Shown: positions 14,548 to 52,411 of the stretch, piece after piece
Layout: every line of letters starts with the position of its first letter
Position numbering within the stretch: the stretch's first letter is position 1
Assembly (NCBI RefSeq): GCF_011751765.2
Contig: NZ_CP061169.1
Location: 2,728,001-2,792,000, forward strand
Direction: 5' to 3'
Source: Paramicrobacterium chengjingii
GTDB taxonomy: Bacteria > Actinomycetota > Actinomycetes > Actinomycetales > Microbacteriaceae
DNA length: 64,000 bases
Made by a program: the position numbers and the translations under genes
The notes under the pieces: generated by a model
What the model saw: only the letters and a program-made list of their open reading frames with translations
Databases searched by the model: none
Told to the model about the DNA's origin: nothing

Positions 14548-15573
14548 CTAGGCGGATCGCAGTTTCGGCACGCCCTCACTTTCGCGCGACGGGGGTGGGG
14601 GCGTGCCGTCTCCAAAGGGGCGACCGCCGAGTTCTTCACGCCCATGTGGGGTGAGCCACACGGTCTCGTCTGGCCCGAGCGGCACGATGCCGCTCGGGTT
14701 GATGTCACGGTGAACGATGTAATAGTGCGCTTTGCTCTGCGCGAAGTCGATCGTGTCGCCAAATCCGGGAGTCTGGAAGAGATCGCGCGCATACGCCCAG
14801 AGCACGGGCATCTCGGCAAGTTTCGACCGATTGCACTTGAAGTGCCCGTGGTACACGGCGTCGAAGCGCGCGAGCGTTGTGAACAGCCGCACATCGGCCT
14901 CGGTGATGCTGTCACCCACAAGAAAGCGCTGCCGTTCGAGGCGCTCGCTCAGCCAGTCGAGACGATCGAAGAGTGTGTTGAATGCGCGTTCGTACGCCTT
15001 CTGAGATCCGGCGAAACCCGCCTTGTACACACCATTATTGACGTCGTGATAGACGATTTCGCTCACCTCGTCGATCTCGCTCCGCAGTGCATCGGGATAG
15101 AGATCCGGCGCACCGTCGCGGTGGAAGGCGCTCCACTCCGTCTCGAAGTCGAGAGTGATCTGAGGGAAGTTATTGGTGACAACGGCCCCGGTGGGAACGT
15201 CGACGATTGCCGGCACCGTGATGCCGCGCGGGTAGTCGCTGAAGCGCGTGAAGTAGGCCTGTTGCAACCGCTCGATCCCGAGCACGGGGTCGACCCCGCC
15301 CGGGTCGAGGTCGAACGTCCAGCTGCGCTGATCGTGTGTCGGCCCAGGCAGGCCGAGCGAAATCGCGTCTTCGAGCCCGAGCAGGCGCCGCACAATGATC
15401 GTGCGGTTCGCCCAGGGGCACGCACGCGCAGCGATCAGCCGGTAGCGTTCCGCTTCAACGGGCCAGCCATCACGCCCATCTCGGGTAATCCGATCTTCAA
15501 TGTAGTTCGTGTCGCGATCGTAGGGCTGCCCCGGCTCTACGTAGCGCCCGTCAGCATCCGTCGATTCAGCCAT
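14548..15573 (-). CDS. Glutathionyl-hydroquinone reductase-like (Gto/ECM4) thiol transferase
   Basis: 341 aa from ATG 15573, preceded by a TATGGT element 6 bases upstream (leaderless). The catalytic region AARACPWANRTIIVRRLLGL holds the CPWA motif of the Omega/Xi-class GSTs that reduce glutathionyl-hydroquinones. C-terminal all-helical domain: QRFLVGDSITEADVRLFTT and FDAVYHGHFKCNRSKLAE. Actinobacteria of this family make mycothiol, not glutathione, so the natural co-thiol is probably mycothiol (inference). The C-terminal tail PFGDGTPPPPSRE is low-complexity. A longer N-terminal reading has no conserved content. Confidence 0.87.
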   Translation of the reverse strand: MAESTDADGRYVEPGQPYDRDTNYIEDRITRDGRDGWPVEAERYRLIAARACPWANRTIIVRRLLGLEDAISLGLPGPTHDQRSWTFDLDPGGVDPVLGIERLQQAYFTRFSDYPRGITVPAIVDVPTGAVVTNNFPQITLDFETEWSAFHRDGAPDLYPDALRSEIDEVSEIVYHDVNNGVYKAGFAGSQKAYERAFNTLFDRLDWLSERLERQRFLVGDSITEADVRLFTTLARFDAVYHGHFKCNRSKLAEMPVLWAYARDLFQTPGFGDTIDFAQSKAHYYIVHRDINPSGIVPLGPDETVWLTPHGREELGGRPFGDGTPPPPSRESEGVPKLRSA

Positions 15574-15743
15574 GTCTCGACCATACGTCGCAATTGAACG
15601 TCCGGCGCTGCTCTGAGCAGATTGATCCCCATCGAACAGGAGCGCCCCGTACGGTTGACGTGGCACGTGCGAGGCACGCAGAGCTTCGCTCCCGGCATTA
15701 CCCATGCCTATCCGCACACGCTCAATCACAGAAGGAACGCATT

Positions 15744-50649: not shown

Positions 50650-50704
50650 GATCTGCTCTACTCCGATCTGCTCTACTCCGATCTGCTCTGAGCAGTTCTG
50701 CTCT
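50650..50704 (+). repeat. Four CTGCTCT half-sites at exact 15-bp steps upstream of clpP1
   Basis: CTGCTCT begins at 50653, 50668, 50683 and 50698. The first two lie in perfect 15-bp tandem copies of GATCTGCTCTACTCC (50650-50679); the third is the left arm of the near-perfect operator CTGCTC-T-GAGCAG (50683-50695); the fourth abuts the place of the -35. The regular spacing points to ordered regulator binding, probably by the XRE protein encoded at 51983-52354. Confidence 0.8.
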
Positions 50705-50743
50705 GGGCCGCATCAGCTTCCCTCGGTATGCTCTCGCGAGCAT
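50704..50743 (+). promoter_or_regulatory. clpP1 promoter with weak -35 and palindrome over the -10
   Basis: TATGCT (50727-50732) is a fair -10; the hexamer 17 bp upstream (TGGGCC, 50704-50709) is not a sigma70 -35, as expected for an activator-dependent promoter. A second inverted pair, ATGCTC-TCGC-GAGCAT (50728-50743), overlaps the -10 and start site and uses the same TGCTC/GAGCA half-site as the upstream array. Leader of about 14 bases to the ATG at 50753. Confidence 0.55.
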
Positions 50744-50752
50744 GCTCGAGTC

Positions 50753-51364
50753 ATGGCACATGACGACACTTCACCACCGCTCTTCACCGAACGCATGCGC
50801 GAGCAGCTGCTACACAAACGCGTGCTCGTTCTCGACGGCGTGCTCGACGACGACAACGGCACGCTGCTCGCCAGTCAGCTCCTTCTGCTGGCCGCCGAAG
50901 ACTCGAACTCCGACGTCGCACTGTGGATCCATTCTCCGGGTGGCAGTGTCCCGTCGATGCTCGCGATCCGAGACATCATGCGGCTCGTGCCGTGCGACGT
51001 CTCGACCCTTGCACTCGGCCTCGCGTGCAGTGCTGGGCAGTTTCTGTTGTCGGCCGGCACACCGGGAAAACGAAGTGCCCTTCCGCACGCCCGAATTCTC
51101 ATGCACCAGGGCTCGGCCGGCATCGGCGGCTCAGCCGTGGAGGTCGAGGCGCAGGCCGCCGACCTGCGCCACAACCGCGACACCGTCCTGGGGCTCATCG
51201 CCGACGATACGGGCCAGCCCATCGAGCGCATCTTCGAAGACTCGCTGCACGACCGCTGGTACACGACAGAGCAGGCGAAGGAGTACGGGTTCATCGACAG
51301 CATCGTTTCGGGCTTCGACCAGGTCATGCCCGATCGCAGAAATCCAATTGGACTGGGGGTCTGA
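50753..51364 (+). CDS. clpP: ClpP-type protease subunit, catalytically complete
   Basis: 203 aa. Complete serine-protease triad: Ser93 in [14 protein letters not shown], His118 in [11 protein letters not shown], Asp167 in [19 protein letters not shown]. Oxyanion strand HSPGGSV present. It forms heptameric proteolytic rings that need a Clp ATPase. The neighbour's active-site loss means this chain would supply all catalysis in a mixed ring. It is the second-operon kind of ClpP (compare Streptomyces ClpP3) judged by the adjacent PopR-like regulator; the housekeeping clpP1P2 normally next to clpX is not in this window. Confidence 0.95.
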
Positions 51365-51365
51365 C

Positions 51366-51974
51366 ATGAGCTCATACACAATCCCGAACGTCGTGGCGCA
51401 GCATCCGCGAGGCGAACGCATCATGGACGTTTACTCAAACCTGCTCACCGAGCGCATCATCTACCTCGGCACTCCCGTCGACTCAGGCGTCGCAAACGCC
51501 ATCATCGCCCAGCTGCTGCATCTGGAATCCGAGAGCTCGGGCGAACCGATCAACCTCTACATCAACTGCGAAGGCGGCGACCTCGCCGCGATGCTCGCCG
51601 TGTACGACACGATGCAGTATGTGCAGTCCCCCATCGCGACAACATGCGTCGGCCAGGCCATCGCCGCCGGCGCCGTGCTTCTCGCCGCGGGGACGCCGGG
51701 TCGGCGCGCTGTTCTGCCGCACACGCGCGTCGTGCTGCATCAGCCGGCTGCAGAAGGGCGAGGGGCGATCCCCGACCTTATCCTGCAAGCAGACGAAGTT
51801 GTTCGCATCCGGTCCGAGATCGAAGAGATCCTCAGCACCCACACCGGTCAGACCGTGCAGACGCTTCGTCGCGATACCGATCGAGACCGCGTTTTCACGT
51901 CGGGGCAAGCGCTCGATTACGGACTCGTCGACCAGGTGCTGACGCCGAGGGGACAAGCGGATGCTGCGGCGTGA
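51366..51974 (+). CDS. ClpP paralog lacking the catalytic serine (ClpR-like)
   Basis: 202 aa from ATG 51366, one base after the previous stop. ClpP fold throughout, but the active-site segment reads [16 protein letters not shown], where ClpP has GQAASMGA: the nucleophilic Ser is Ala100 (codon GCC). His125 (VVLHQPAA) and Asp174 ([19 protein letters not shown]) remain. The frame is intact and the rest is well conserved, so it is no pseudogene. By analogy with cyanobacterial ClpR it should be a structural partner that shapes the ring or ATPase docking. Translation is likely coupled to clpP1. Confidence 0.93.
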
Positions 51975-51982
51975 CTCTCCGC

Positions 51983-52354
51983 TCAGGCCGCGAGCAGCAG
52001 CGCGTCGACGCCGTTCGTGGTGCTCTGTCGCTGCGGCCCGGCCGCCACCTCGCCCGCGAGTTCGATGAGCGATGTTTCGAGCGCTCCGGCGATCGCCGCG
52101 ATCATCTCGCTCGACGGCTCCTTGCGCCCGCGCTCAACCTCCGAGAGGTATTGCGGTGAGACGCCGGCAGCCTTGGCTGTCTCGATGAGTTTCTCTCCGC
52201 GCCGGCTCCGATGCTCCCGAAGCCGTTCTCCAAGTTCTTCGCGCCACAGCCTCTCCGGCTGCGGGCGCTCGGGCGGCCGCCGTTCCGAATGCTGTCCGCG
52301 CTCCGCATTGGCACGACGACGTCGCGCCACCTTCATGTCCACGATCTCAGCCAT
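51983..52354 (-). CDS. XRE-family regulator of the PopR/ClgR type with LAA tail
   Basis: 123 aa. A basic N-terminus (VARRRRANAERG) precedes an HTH_3 domain at about 37-98: LREHRSRRGEKLIETAKAAG, VSPQYLSEVERGRKEPSSEM. The YLSEVERG-x-KEPSSE segment is that of ClgR/PopR, actinobacterial activators of clp genes. The C-terminus DALLLAA resembles the ssrA-like degron by which PopR and ClgR are themselves destroyed by ClpP. Convergent with clpP2, 8 bases between stops. It should bind the half-site array before clpP1 and the matching site before itself. Confidence 0.9.
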   Translation of the reverse strand: MAEIVDMKVARRRRANAERGQHSERRPPERPQPERLWREELGERLREHRSRRGEKLIETAKAAGVSPQYLSEVERGRKEPSSEMIAAIAGALETSLIELAGEVAAGPQRQSTTNGVDALLLAA

Positions 52355-52395
52355 GCTTCACCCTAAAACGGGCGGCGCACTGCTGTCTCGCGATT

Positions 52396-52411
52396 CTGCT
52401 CAGAGCGGATC
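52396..52411 (-). promoter_or_regulatory. Operator copy upstream of the XRE regulator
   Basis: Minus strand reads GATCCGCTCTGAGCAG; the clpP1 array has GATCTGCTCTGAGCAG at 50680-50695, one difference in 16. It lies 42-57 bases before the regulator's ATG. The plus-strand core TGCTCAGAGCG differs at one position from the ClgR motif CGCYNANRGCG as I recall it, and the layout TCTGC-N5-GC fits the PopR box. Confidence 0.7.

Follow-up and report, generated by a model that had tools for sequence, protein, structure and literature searches.

Streptomyces lividans carries an accessory pair of ClpP genes, clpP3-clpP4, with the regulator gene popR convergent to them (Viala and Mazodier; PMC9765437, PMC12607617, PMC9775585). 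S. lividans PopR acts as an activator (PMC9765437, PMC9775585), its degradation by ClpP1/ClpP2 very likely depends mainly on recognition of its two C-terminal alanines (PMC9775585), and its binding site reads TCTGCC-3N-GGCGAATCTGCC-3N-GGCAGA (PMC9775585). In Streptomyces, the ClpP3P4 core is not affected by acyldepsipeptide (ADEP) antibiotics and takes over when mutation of clpP1 has made the cells resistant to ADEP (PMC12607617). We analyzed a locus of the same gene order at positions 50650-52411 of a 64,000-nucleotide stretch of the Paramicrobacterium chengjingii genome (Microbacteriaceae; contig NZ_CP061169.1, positions 2,728,001 to 2,792,000; hereafter the window), where an active clpP gene is followed by a paralog predicted to be catalytically dead and the pair converges on a regulator gene of the XRE family.

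We consider it roughly 80% probable that this locus encodes a PopR-controlled backup ClpP core with a proteolysis-gated, self-amplifying switch and with cutting confined to the ClpP1-type subunit. The system itself is known; what is new is the pattern of catalytic triad loss in the ClpP2-type subunit and, in Microbacteriaceae, an operator in front of the regulator gene. The Streptomyces loci share with the window the regulator clade, a tandem 15-bp operator before clpP3, the C-terminal Ala-Ala of the regulator, and the pairing of one ClpP1-type subunit with one ClpP2-type subunit whose triad is broken. They differ in the residue lost (the nucleophile, to Ala, at the window locus; His, to Gly, in Streptomyces), in the operator before the regulator gene (35/37 Microbacteriaceae loci compared with 0/16 Streptomyces loci), and in the position of the clpP1 operator, which is nearer the start codon at window-type loci.

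Results

The first accessory gene, clpP1 (50753-51364, + strand), is clpP3-like and matches the Pfam CLP_protease model with 174.9 bits. Its triad, Ser93-His118-Asp167, is intact, as required of an active ClpP peptidase. The clpP4-like clpP2 (51366-51974, + strand) starts one base behind clpP1 and matches the same model with 220.3 bits. Alignments place Ala100 (codon GCC, 51663-51665, + strand) at its catalytic serine position, and because its triad columns read Ala100-His125-Asp174 in place of Ser-His-Asp, we predict that the subunit is catalytically dead. The popR-like XRE gene (51983-52354, - strand) encodes 123 residues with HTH_31 and HTH_3 domains and is convergent with clpP2. An earlier note on this DNA had described an active clpP, a serine-less paralog one base behind it and a convergent XRE gene, and all three are present. 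The single-contig genome (3.62 Mb) contains four clpP genes, namely the accessory pair and, at 1.869 Mb, the housekeeping one. In a tree of 17 sampled loci, accessory ClpP1 grouped with housekeeping ClpP1 and accessory ClpP2 with housekeeping ClpP2 (Shimodaira-Hasegawa-like approximate likelihood ratio test support 100), and the dead subunit is of the ClpP2 type.

Accessory ClpP2 was found in 41 of 299 Microbacteriaceae genomes, at 42 loci; carriers were called at E ≤ 1e-66, and about ten other genomes had a third, weaker ClpP match. At these loci the catalytic serine of ClpP2 was absent in 42/42 (Ala in 24, Gly in 18), His was kept in 42/42 and Asp in 40/42, while the partner ClpP1 was Ser-His-Asp (SHD) in 42/42. 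We extended the comparison to 394 genomes of the class Actinomycetes, which gave 111 matches with E ≤ 6.1e-88, above a visible gap; three of these loci (L095, L110 and L123) duplicate family loci, so that the combined 149 ClpP2-type, 148 ClpP1-type and 132 regulator records comprise 146, 145 and 129 distinct ones. ClpP1-type subunits were intact at all 110 readable class loci, and in 148/148 records with the family set included. The ClpP2-type triad was changed in 72/111, with 65 lacking Ser or His and 7 altered at Asp only. Alone or in combination, Ser was replaced by Ala, Gly, Glu, Trp or Phe, His by Gly, Gln or Asp, and Asp by Asn, His, Thr, Ser or Glu.

Loci from a genus with large genomes (code f5/g91) shared the layout of the window locus. 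We also collected loci with organism names, using ClpP4 from one of these f5/g91 loci as the query; the best match, from S. griseoviridis, was identical to it. Among the best 80 of at least 557 matches, 79 are titled Streptomyces and one is titled only Actinobacteria bacterium. The catalytic His of ClpP4 was Gly in 80/80 (SGD in 79, SGE in 1), and ClpP3 was SHD in 79/80; the single remaining ClpP3 has Gln at the catalytic serine column. Presumed housekeeping ClpPs, examined as a control, were SHD in 55/55; they came from 21 loci of Microbacteriaceae and from 13 phylum loci whose housekeeping identity is presumed and not shown. In a phylum survey, of which the first 30 loci were considered, the matches below the top rows were for the most part housekeeping ClpP2. 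The earlier note knew of no description of this arrangement with a dead subunit for Microbacteriaceae. It is indeed present there, but it is not peculiar to the family, as Streptomyces ClpP4 has lost the catalytic His; from the class-wide triads and the close database relatives we rejected the idea that loss of the serine is confined to the genus or family.

A tree of 146 distinct rows, built without the triad columns, required at least 7 changes between intact and broken triads and 27 changes of exact state, or 6 changes if only Ser or His loss is counted; 55 of its 143 inner branches are weak. On our reading of the printed tree, with its many weak branches, an intact backbone and losses alone can account for all triad changes. 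As far as sequence comparison allows, repeated independent inactivation is a pattern and not an accident. The searched literature, which included PMC9765437, PMC12607617, PMC9775585, PMC4416901 and PMC8182300 but in which the original PopR papers (Viala 2000, 2002) did not appear, contains no statement of a dead or repeatedly inactivated ClpP4; those original papers may already mention the ClpP4 histidine.

The dead gene is under purifying selection. Among four congeners, the ratio of nonsynonymous to synonymous substitution rates (dN/dS) was 0.02-0.08 for the dead clpP2 and 0.07-0.09 for the active clpP1, and on these values we rejected a pseudogene in decay. The clpP2 product is predicted to adopt the ClpP fold, with M. 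tuberculosis ClpP1P2 (6iw7, 47% identity) as its best PDB match. In S. hawaiiensis ClpP1P2, full activity remains when the ClpP2 serine is killed, and ClpP2 docks the unfoldase (PMC9765437). Based on this precedent, the ClpP2-type site was perhaps already dispensable in the parent machine. Such parental dispensability explains why the site may be lost, but not the constraint on the rest of the protein. Our comparison of hydrophobic pockets gave no answer as to which subunit docks the unfoldase.

Near-identical 16-bp sites, proposed as operators in the earlier note, lie before clpP1 (GATCTGCTCTGAGCAG, 50680-50695, + strand) and before the XRE gene (GATCCGCTCTGAGCAG, 52396-52411, - strand). The two share 15 of 16 bases, and their palindromes exceed shuffle expectation, so we rejected a chance origin. 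Within these sites, operator 1 of clpP1 is CTGCTCTGAGCAG (50683-50695, + strand), centered at -64 from the ATG, and the operator of the regulator gene is CCGCTCTGAGCAG (52396-52408, - strand), centered at -48. The earlier note had missed a second copy before clpP1, operator 2 (CTGCTCTGGGCCG, 50698-50710, + strand; centered at -49), which lies 15 bp from operator 1 and is one base off the palindrome rule. Also missed were the regulator's C-terminal Leu-Ala-Ala, described below, and two 15-bp repeats, GATCTGCTCTACTCC, with operator half-sites (50650-50679, + strand) in the same 15-bp phase as the operators. The sequence GATCNGCTCNGAGCAG occurs exactly twice in the genome, before clpP1 and before the XRE gene; with one mismatch it gives 13 further rows genome-wide, one of which is the clpP1 site on the opposite strand, and the core CYGCTCWGAGCRG is found in three places. 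A relaxed tandem pattern returned 3 rows genome-wide and its reversed control 7, so the tandem alone is not distinctive in one genome.

Across loci the operators are conserved. The palindrome CYGC-5N-GCRG occurs within 120 bp before clpP1 at 37/41 Microbacteriaceae loci (200 dinucleotide shuffles: mean 2.85, largest 7), one locus (L036) being excluded because its contig ends too soon. The 15-bp tandem, allowing one mismatch overall, is present at 37/41 (shuffles: mean 0.02, largest 1), and exactly so at 23/41 (shuffle mean 0). Before the regulator gene the palindrome occurs within the same distance at 35/37 family loci (shuffles: mean 1.9, largest 7), with L063 excluded because its start codon was not found. 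Because the patterns were derived from the family set, the class set is the fairer test. There the palindrome precedes clpP1 at 100/110 loci (100 shuffles: mean 9.5, largest 16) and the tandem at 71/110 (shuffles: mean 0.11, largest 1). Among the named loci, the tandem with at most one mismatch precedes clpP3 at 64/80 (30 shuffles: 0). Two loci, L060 and L061, have by eye four operator-like copies with a 15-bp period before clpP1 instead of two.

The operator before the regulator gene is more restricted. It was found at 43/97 loci of the class sample (shuffles: mean 12.6, largest 22), with 8/9 in Microbacteriaceae, 0/16 in Streptomyces (code f5) and 1/16 in family f96. At the named loci, a palindrome within 400 nt before popR occurred at 15/80, compared with a shuffle mean of 12.9, and at scattered positions. 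Positive autoregulation is accordingly a prediction from sequence for the window, and not for Streptomyces.

Within the family, the center of the nearest site is at -48 or -49 from the start codon for 28/35 regulator promoters and 22/37 clpP1 promoters; where a second exact site is present before clpP1, it is centered at -63 or -64 in 20/24. A TANNNT element lies 11-13 nt before the regulator ATG at 32/38 loci, a generous count, as our choice of start codons favored those preceded by this element, and its position suggests a leaderless transcript for the regulator gene. In the window the predicted -10 element of this transcript is TAGGGT (52360-52365, - strand). Upstream of clpP1 a weaker CANNNT occupies the same place (A at -11 in 35/41, T at -7 in 35/41, T at -12 in 1/41), and these base counts from 41 loci predict a weak -10 element, CATGCT (50741-50746, + strand), for a leaderless clpP1 transcript. 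Operators upstream of the -35 region together with a poor -10 element would fit an activator.

The earlier note had called the regulator PopR/ClgR-like. The PopR half of this label was borne out, but the regulator stands apart from ClgR. In a tree of DNA-binding domains (81 columns), a single branch with support 100/99 split 54 locus regulators, sampled by family and including Streptomyces, from 31 ClgRs, which were the best ClgR-model matches (4 above cut-off). The window regulator scored 64.7 bits against the ClgR model NF041677, below its cut-off of 170, a strict threshold passed by only 4/148 class genomes. The locus tandem matches the published S. lividans PopR motif, with the same two palindromes 15 bp apart; the ClgR motif is GTTCGC-5N-GCG (PMC9775585), as opposed to CTGC-5N-GCAG at the locus. 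Given the gene layout, the tandem operator match and the tree separation from ClgR, the window regulator is a PopR ortholog as far as sequence can tell. We rejected the reading that it is the ClgR of this genome, as a separate ClgR-like gene is located elsewhere (G000:C1:1985033-1985317, in locus L020, G000:C1:1983533-1986817) and the tree opposes it. ClgR, which activates housekeeping clp genes, resembles PopR in being a Clp-linked activator and in its XRE fold. The best PDB matches here are 3f51 and 5woq; the structural model of the window regulator, with a low predicted local distance difference test score (pLDDT) at both ends, matches the ClgR fold 3f51.

The regulator ends in ...DALLLAA, and its C-terminal Leu-Ala-Ala (51986-51994, - strand) is a predicted degron. 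An Ala-Ala end is present in 127 of 132 regulator records (129 distinct), though the preceding tail hardly aligns, and in only 2/148 neighboring ClpP1 and 20/149 neighboring ClpP2 records. PopR of the named loci has this end in 76/80. In 39 database rows, hand-chosen from 120 listed and including the window's own protein, Ala122 never varies, and at least 90% conserve Leu121 and Ala123. ClgRs end in Ala-Ala in 13 of 31 examined. The ClgR-like protein of the P. chengjingii genome (L020) has a Thr-Arg end, without Ala-Ala.

The earlier note had proposed a search of related genomes for synteny, and the gene order proved conserved in Actinomycetes. A regulator gene lies beside the pair at 38/42 family loci and within the fetched flank at 98/111 class loci (a few at 1-1.5 kb; some contigs end early), and convergent popR accompanies clpP3-clpP4 at 80/80 named loci. 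In the class tree, rows of seven family codes are mixed within the Ala-type clade, which suggests that the locus has moved horizontally from one actinobacterial family to another. In the window, a kinase gene, clpP1, clpP2 and popR lie between a membrane-protein gene and dcd. Genome G001, of the same genus, has a single gene between these flanks (at L337), which we take, by reading alone, to be nucleosidase-like, so the whole kinase-clpP1-clpP2-popR block has been gained or lost.

Scans for consensus sigma-70 promoters and for terminators returned none. The stop codons of clpP2 and popR are separated by eight bases (51974-51983), and with this convergent arrangement and no terminator-like site, the two transcripts may overlap. 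A third perfect copy of CTGCTCTGAGCAG is located at 15608-15620 of the window, 35 bp before a gene on the - strand (14548-15573) with TATGGT 12 nt before its ATG. This gene is presumably glutathionyl-hydroquinone-reductase-like, a name given by reading alone. We rejected it as a third member of the regulon because inspection by eye revealed no such palindrome at this gene in 4/4 congeners.

Discussion

We propose that the regulator is normally degraded by the housekeeping Clp protease by way of its C-terminal Leu-Ala-Ala, and that the accessory genes would therefore stay off. If housekeeping capacity dropped through overload, inhibition or damage, the regulator would survive, bind the tandem operator centered at -64/-49 of the weak leaderless clpP1 promoter, and switch on the clpP1-clpP2 core. 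By binding at -48 of its own promoter as well, it would raise its own level, which would make the switching sharp. In the resulting mixed particle only the ClpP1-type subunit would cut, and the ClpP2-type subunit may be retained as a non-cutting structural or unfoldase-facing ring. The earlier note had arrived at a similar feedback interpretation, in which a regulator of the ClpP-substrate type switches on the set and is then destroyed. Its sequence-checkable parts came out as predicted, among them a C-terminal Ala-Ala and an operator matching the S. lividans PopR site, and overall we regard that interpretation as partly supported.

Several observations weigh against our proposal. The position of the operators favors activation without proving it. 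Subunit death appears to be common but not required, as the ClpP2-type triad is intact in 39/111 class loci. Ser also occupies the dead position in 9 of the 120 closest listed database relatives, 8 of them at 76-81% identity, which hints at reversion or recent loss. Ser-bearing close relatives at 78-81% identity include P0143, P0152, P0153, P0154, P0157, P0160, P0163 and P0228, the last from Nocardia jejuensis. Several residues in the docking pocket of the dead subunit are polar or small (His49, Asn or Gln60, Thr90, Ala112, in E. coli numbering), which makes unfoldase docking through this pocket doubtful. Five regulators lack the Ala-Ala end, and no regulator gene was found beside the pair at 4/42 family loci (L048, L050, L051 and L058). 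The locus is patchy in the family, and because G001 lacks it, the backup would seem to be dispensable. Finally, the 7 subunits changed at Asp only need not be dead, as Listeria ClpP1 with Asn at the Asp position is active in a mixed particle (PMC9765437).

The same anatomy might be read with the opposite sign, the regulator repressing the accessory operon and itself, so that its degradation would induce the genes. XRE proteins are often repressors, and an operator at the regulator's own promoter is a classic repressor layout. However, the operators mostly lie at -48/-49 and -63/-64, upstream of the expected -35/-10 elements, the clpP1 -10 element is consistently weak, as at activator-dependent promoters, and the S. 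lividans PopR ortholog activates (PMC9765437, PMC9775585). We therefore regard repression as very improbable. Somewhat less remote, though still unlikely, is that the dead subunit serves as a regulatory or dominant-negative partner which lowers or retunes ClpP particles, those of the housekeeping protease included, in place of forming a dedicated backup core. Triad loss that recurs in one subunit only, combined with purifying selection, is compatible with such a role, and inactive subunits occur in plastid Clp cores (PMC8182300, PMC6508832). Yet an intact ClpP1-type partner is co-encoded in every one of the 148 readable records, and the S. hawaiiensis housekeeping ClpP1P2 with a dead ClpP2 is fully active (PMC9765437).

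A further explanation concerns the dead subunit alone and is compatible with the PopR-controlled switch. The ClpP2-type site may have been unneeded in a rarely expressed backup core and may have died by neutral decay, without its death having a function. Different residues were lost in different ways, Ser is present in a few close relatives, and ClpP2 catalysis is dispensable in the housekeeping core (PMC9765437). On the other hand, dN/dS indicates as much constraint on the remainder of the dead protein as on the active subunit, and the near-complete retention of His and Asp in the family would be odd for a freely drifting site. We consider neutral decay a serious possibility, but one that we do not favor. 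With about the same reserve, we tentatively suggest that the non-cutting ClpP2-type ring is a selected design that arose at least six or seven times in Actinomycetes through destruction of different triad residues, that it gives the backup core a substrate or product profile unlike that of the housekeeping core, and that in Microbacteriaceae it is part of a self-amplifying, proteolysis-gated switch.

Silent ClpP subunits and accessory cores are found in other systems. ClpR of cyanobacteria and plastids is likewise an inactive ClpP paralog kept with active ones; here, by comparison, the dead subunit is of the ClpP2 type, belongs to a two-gene operon with a popR gene, and shows many different triad losses. 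ClpP_ADEP of S. hawaiiensis is likewise an accessory ClpP in a mixed core with ClpP2, but it is a self-resistance protein closest to ClpP1, unlike the clpP3-clpP4 pair (PMC12607617).

ClpP is a drug target. The convergent inactivation of the second subunit, Streptomyces included, would be unexpected to a Clp specialist, and the repeated losses offer a natural mutagenesis series on why a two-ring protease keeps one ring silent. The locus would also provide a simple switch whose sensor is the regulator's own degradation.

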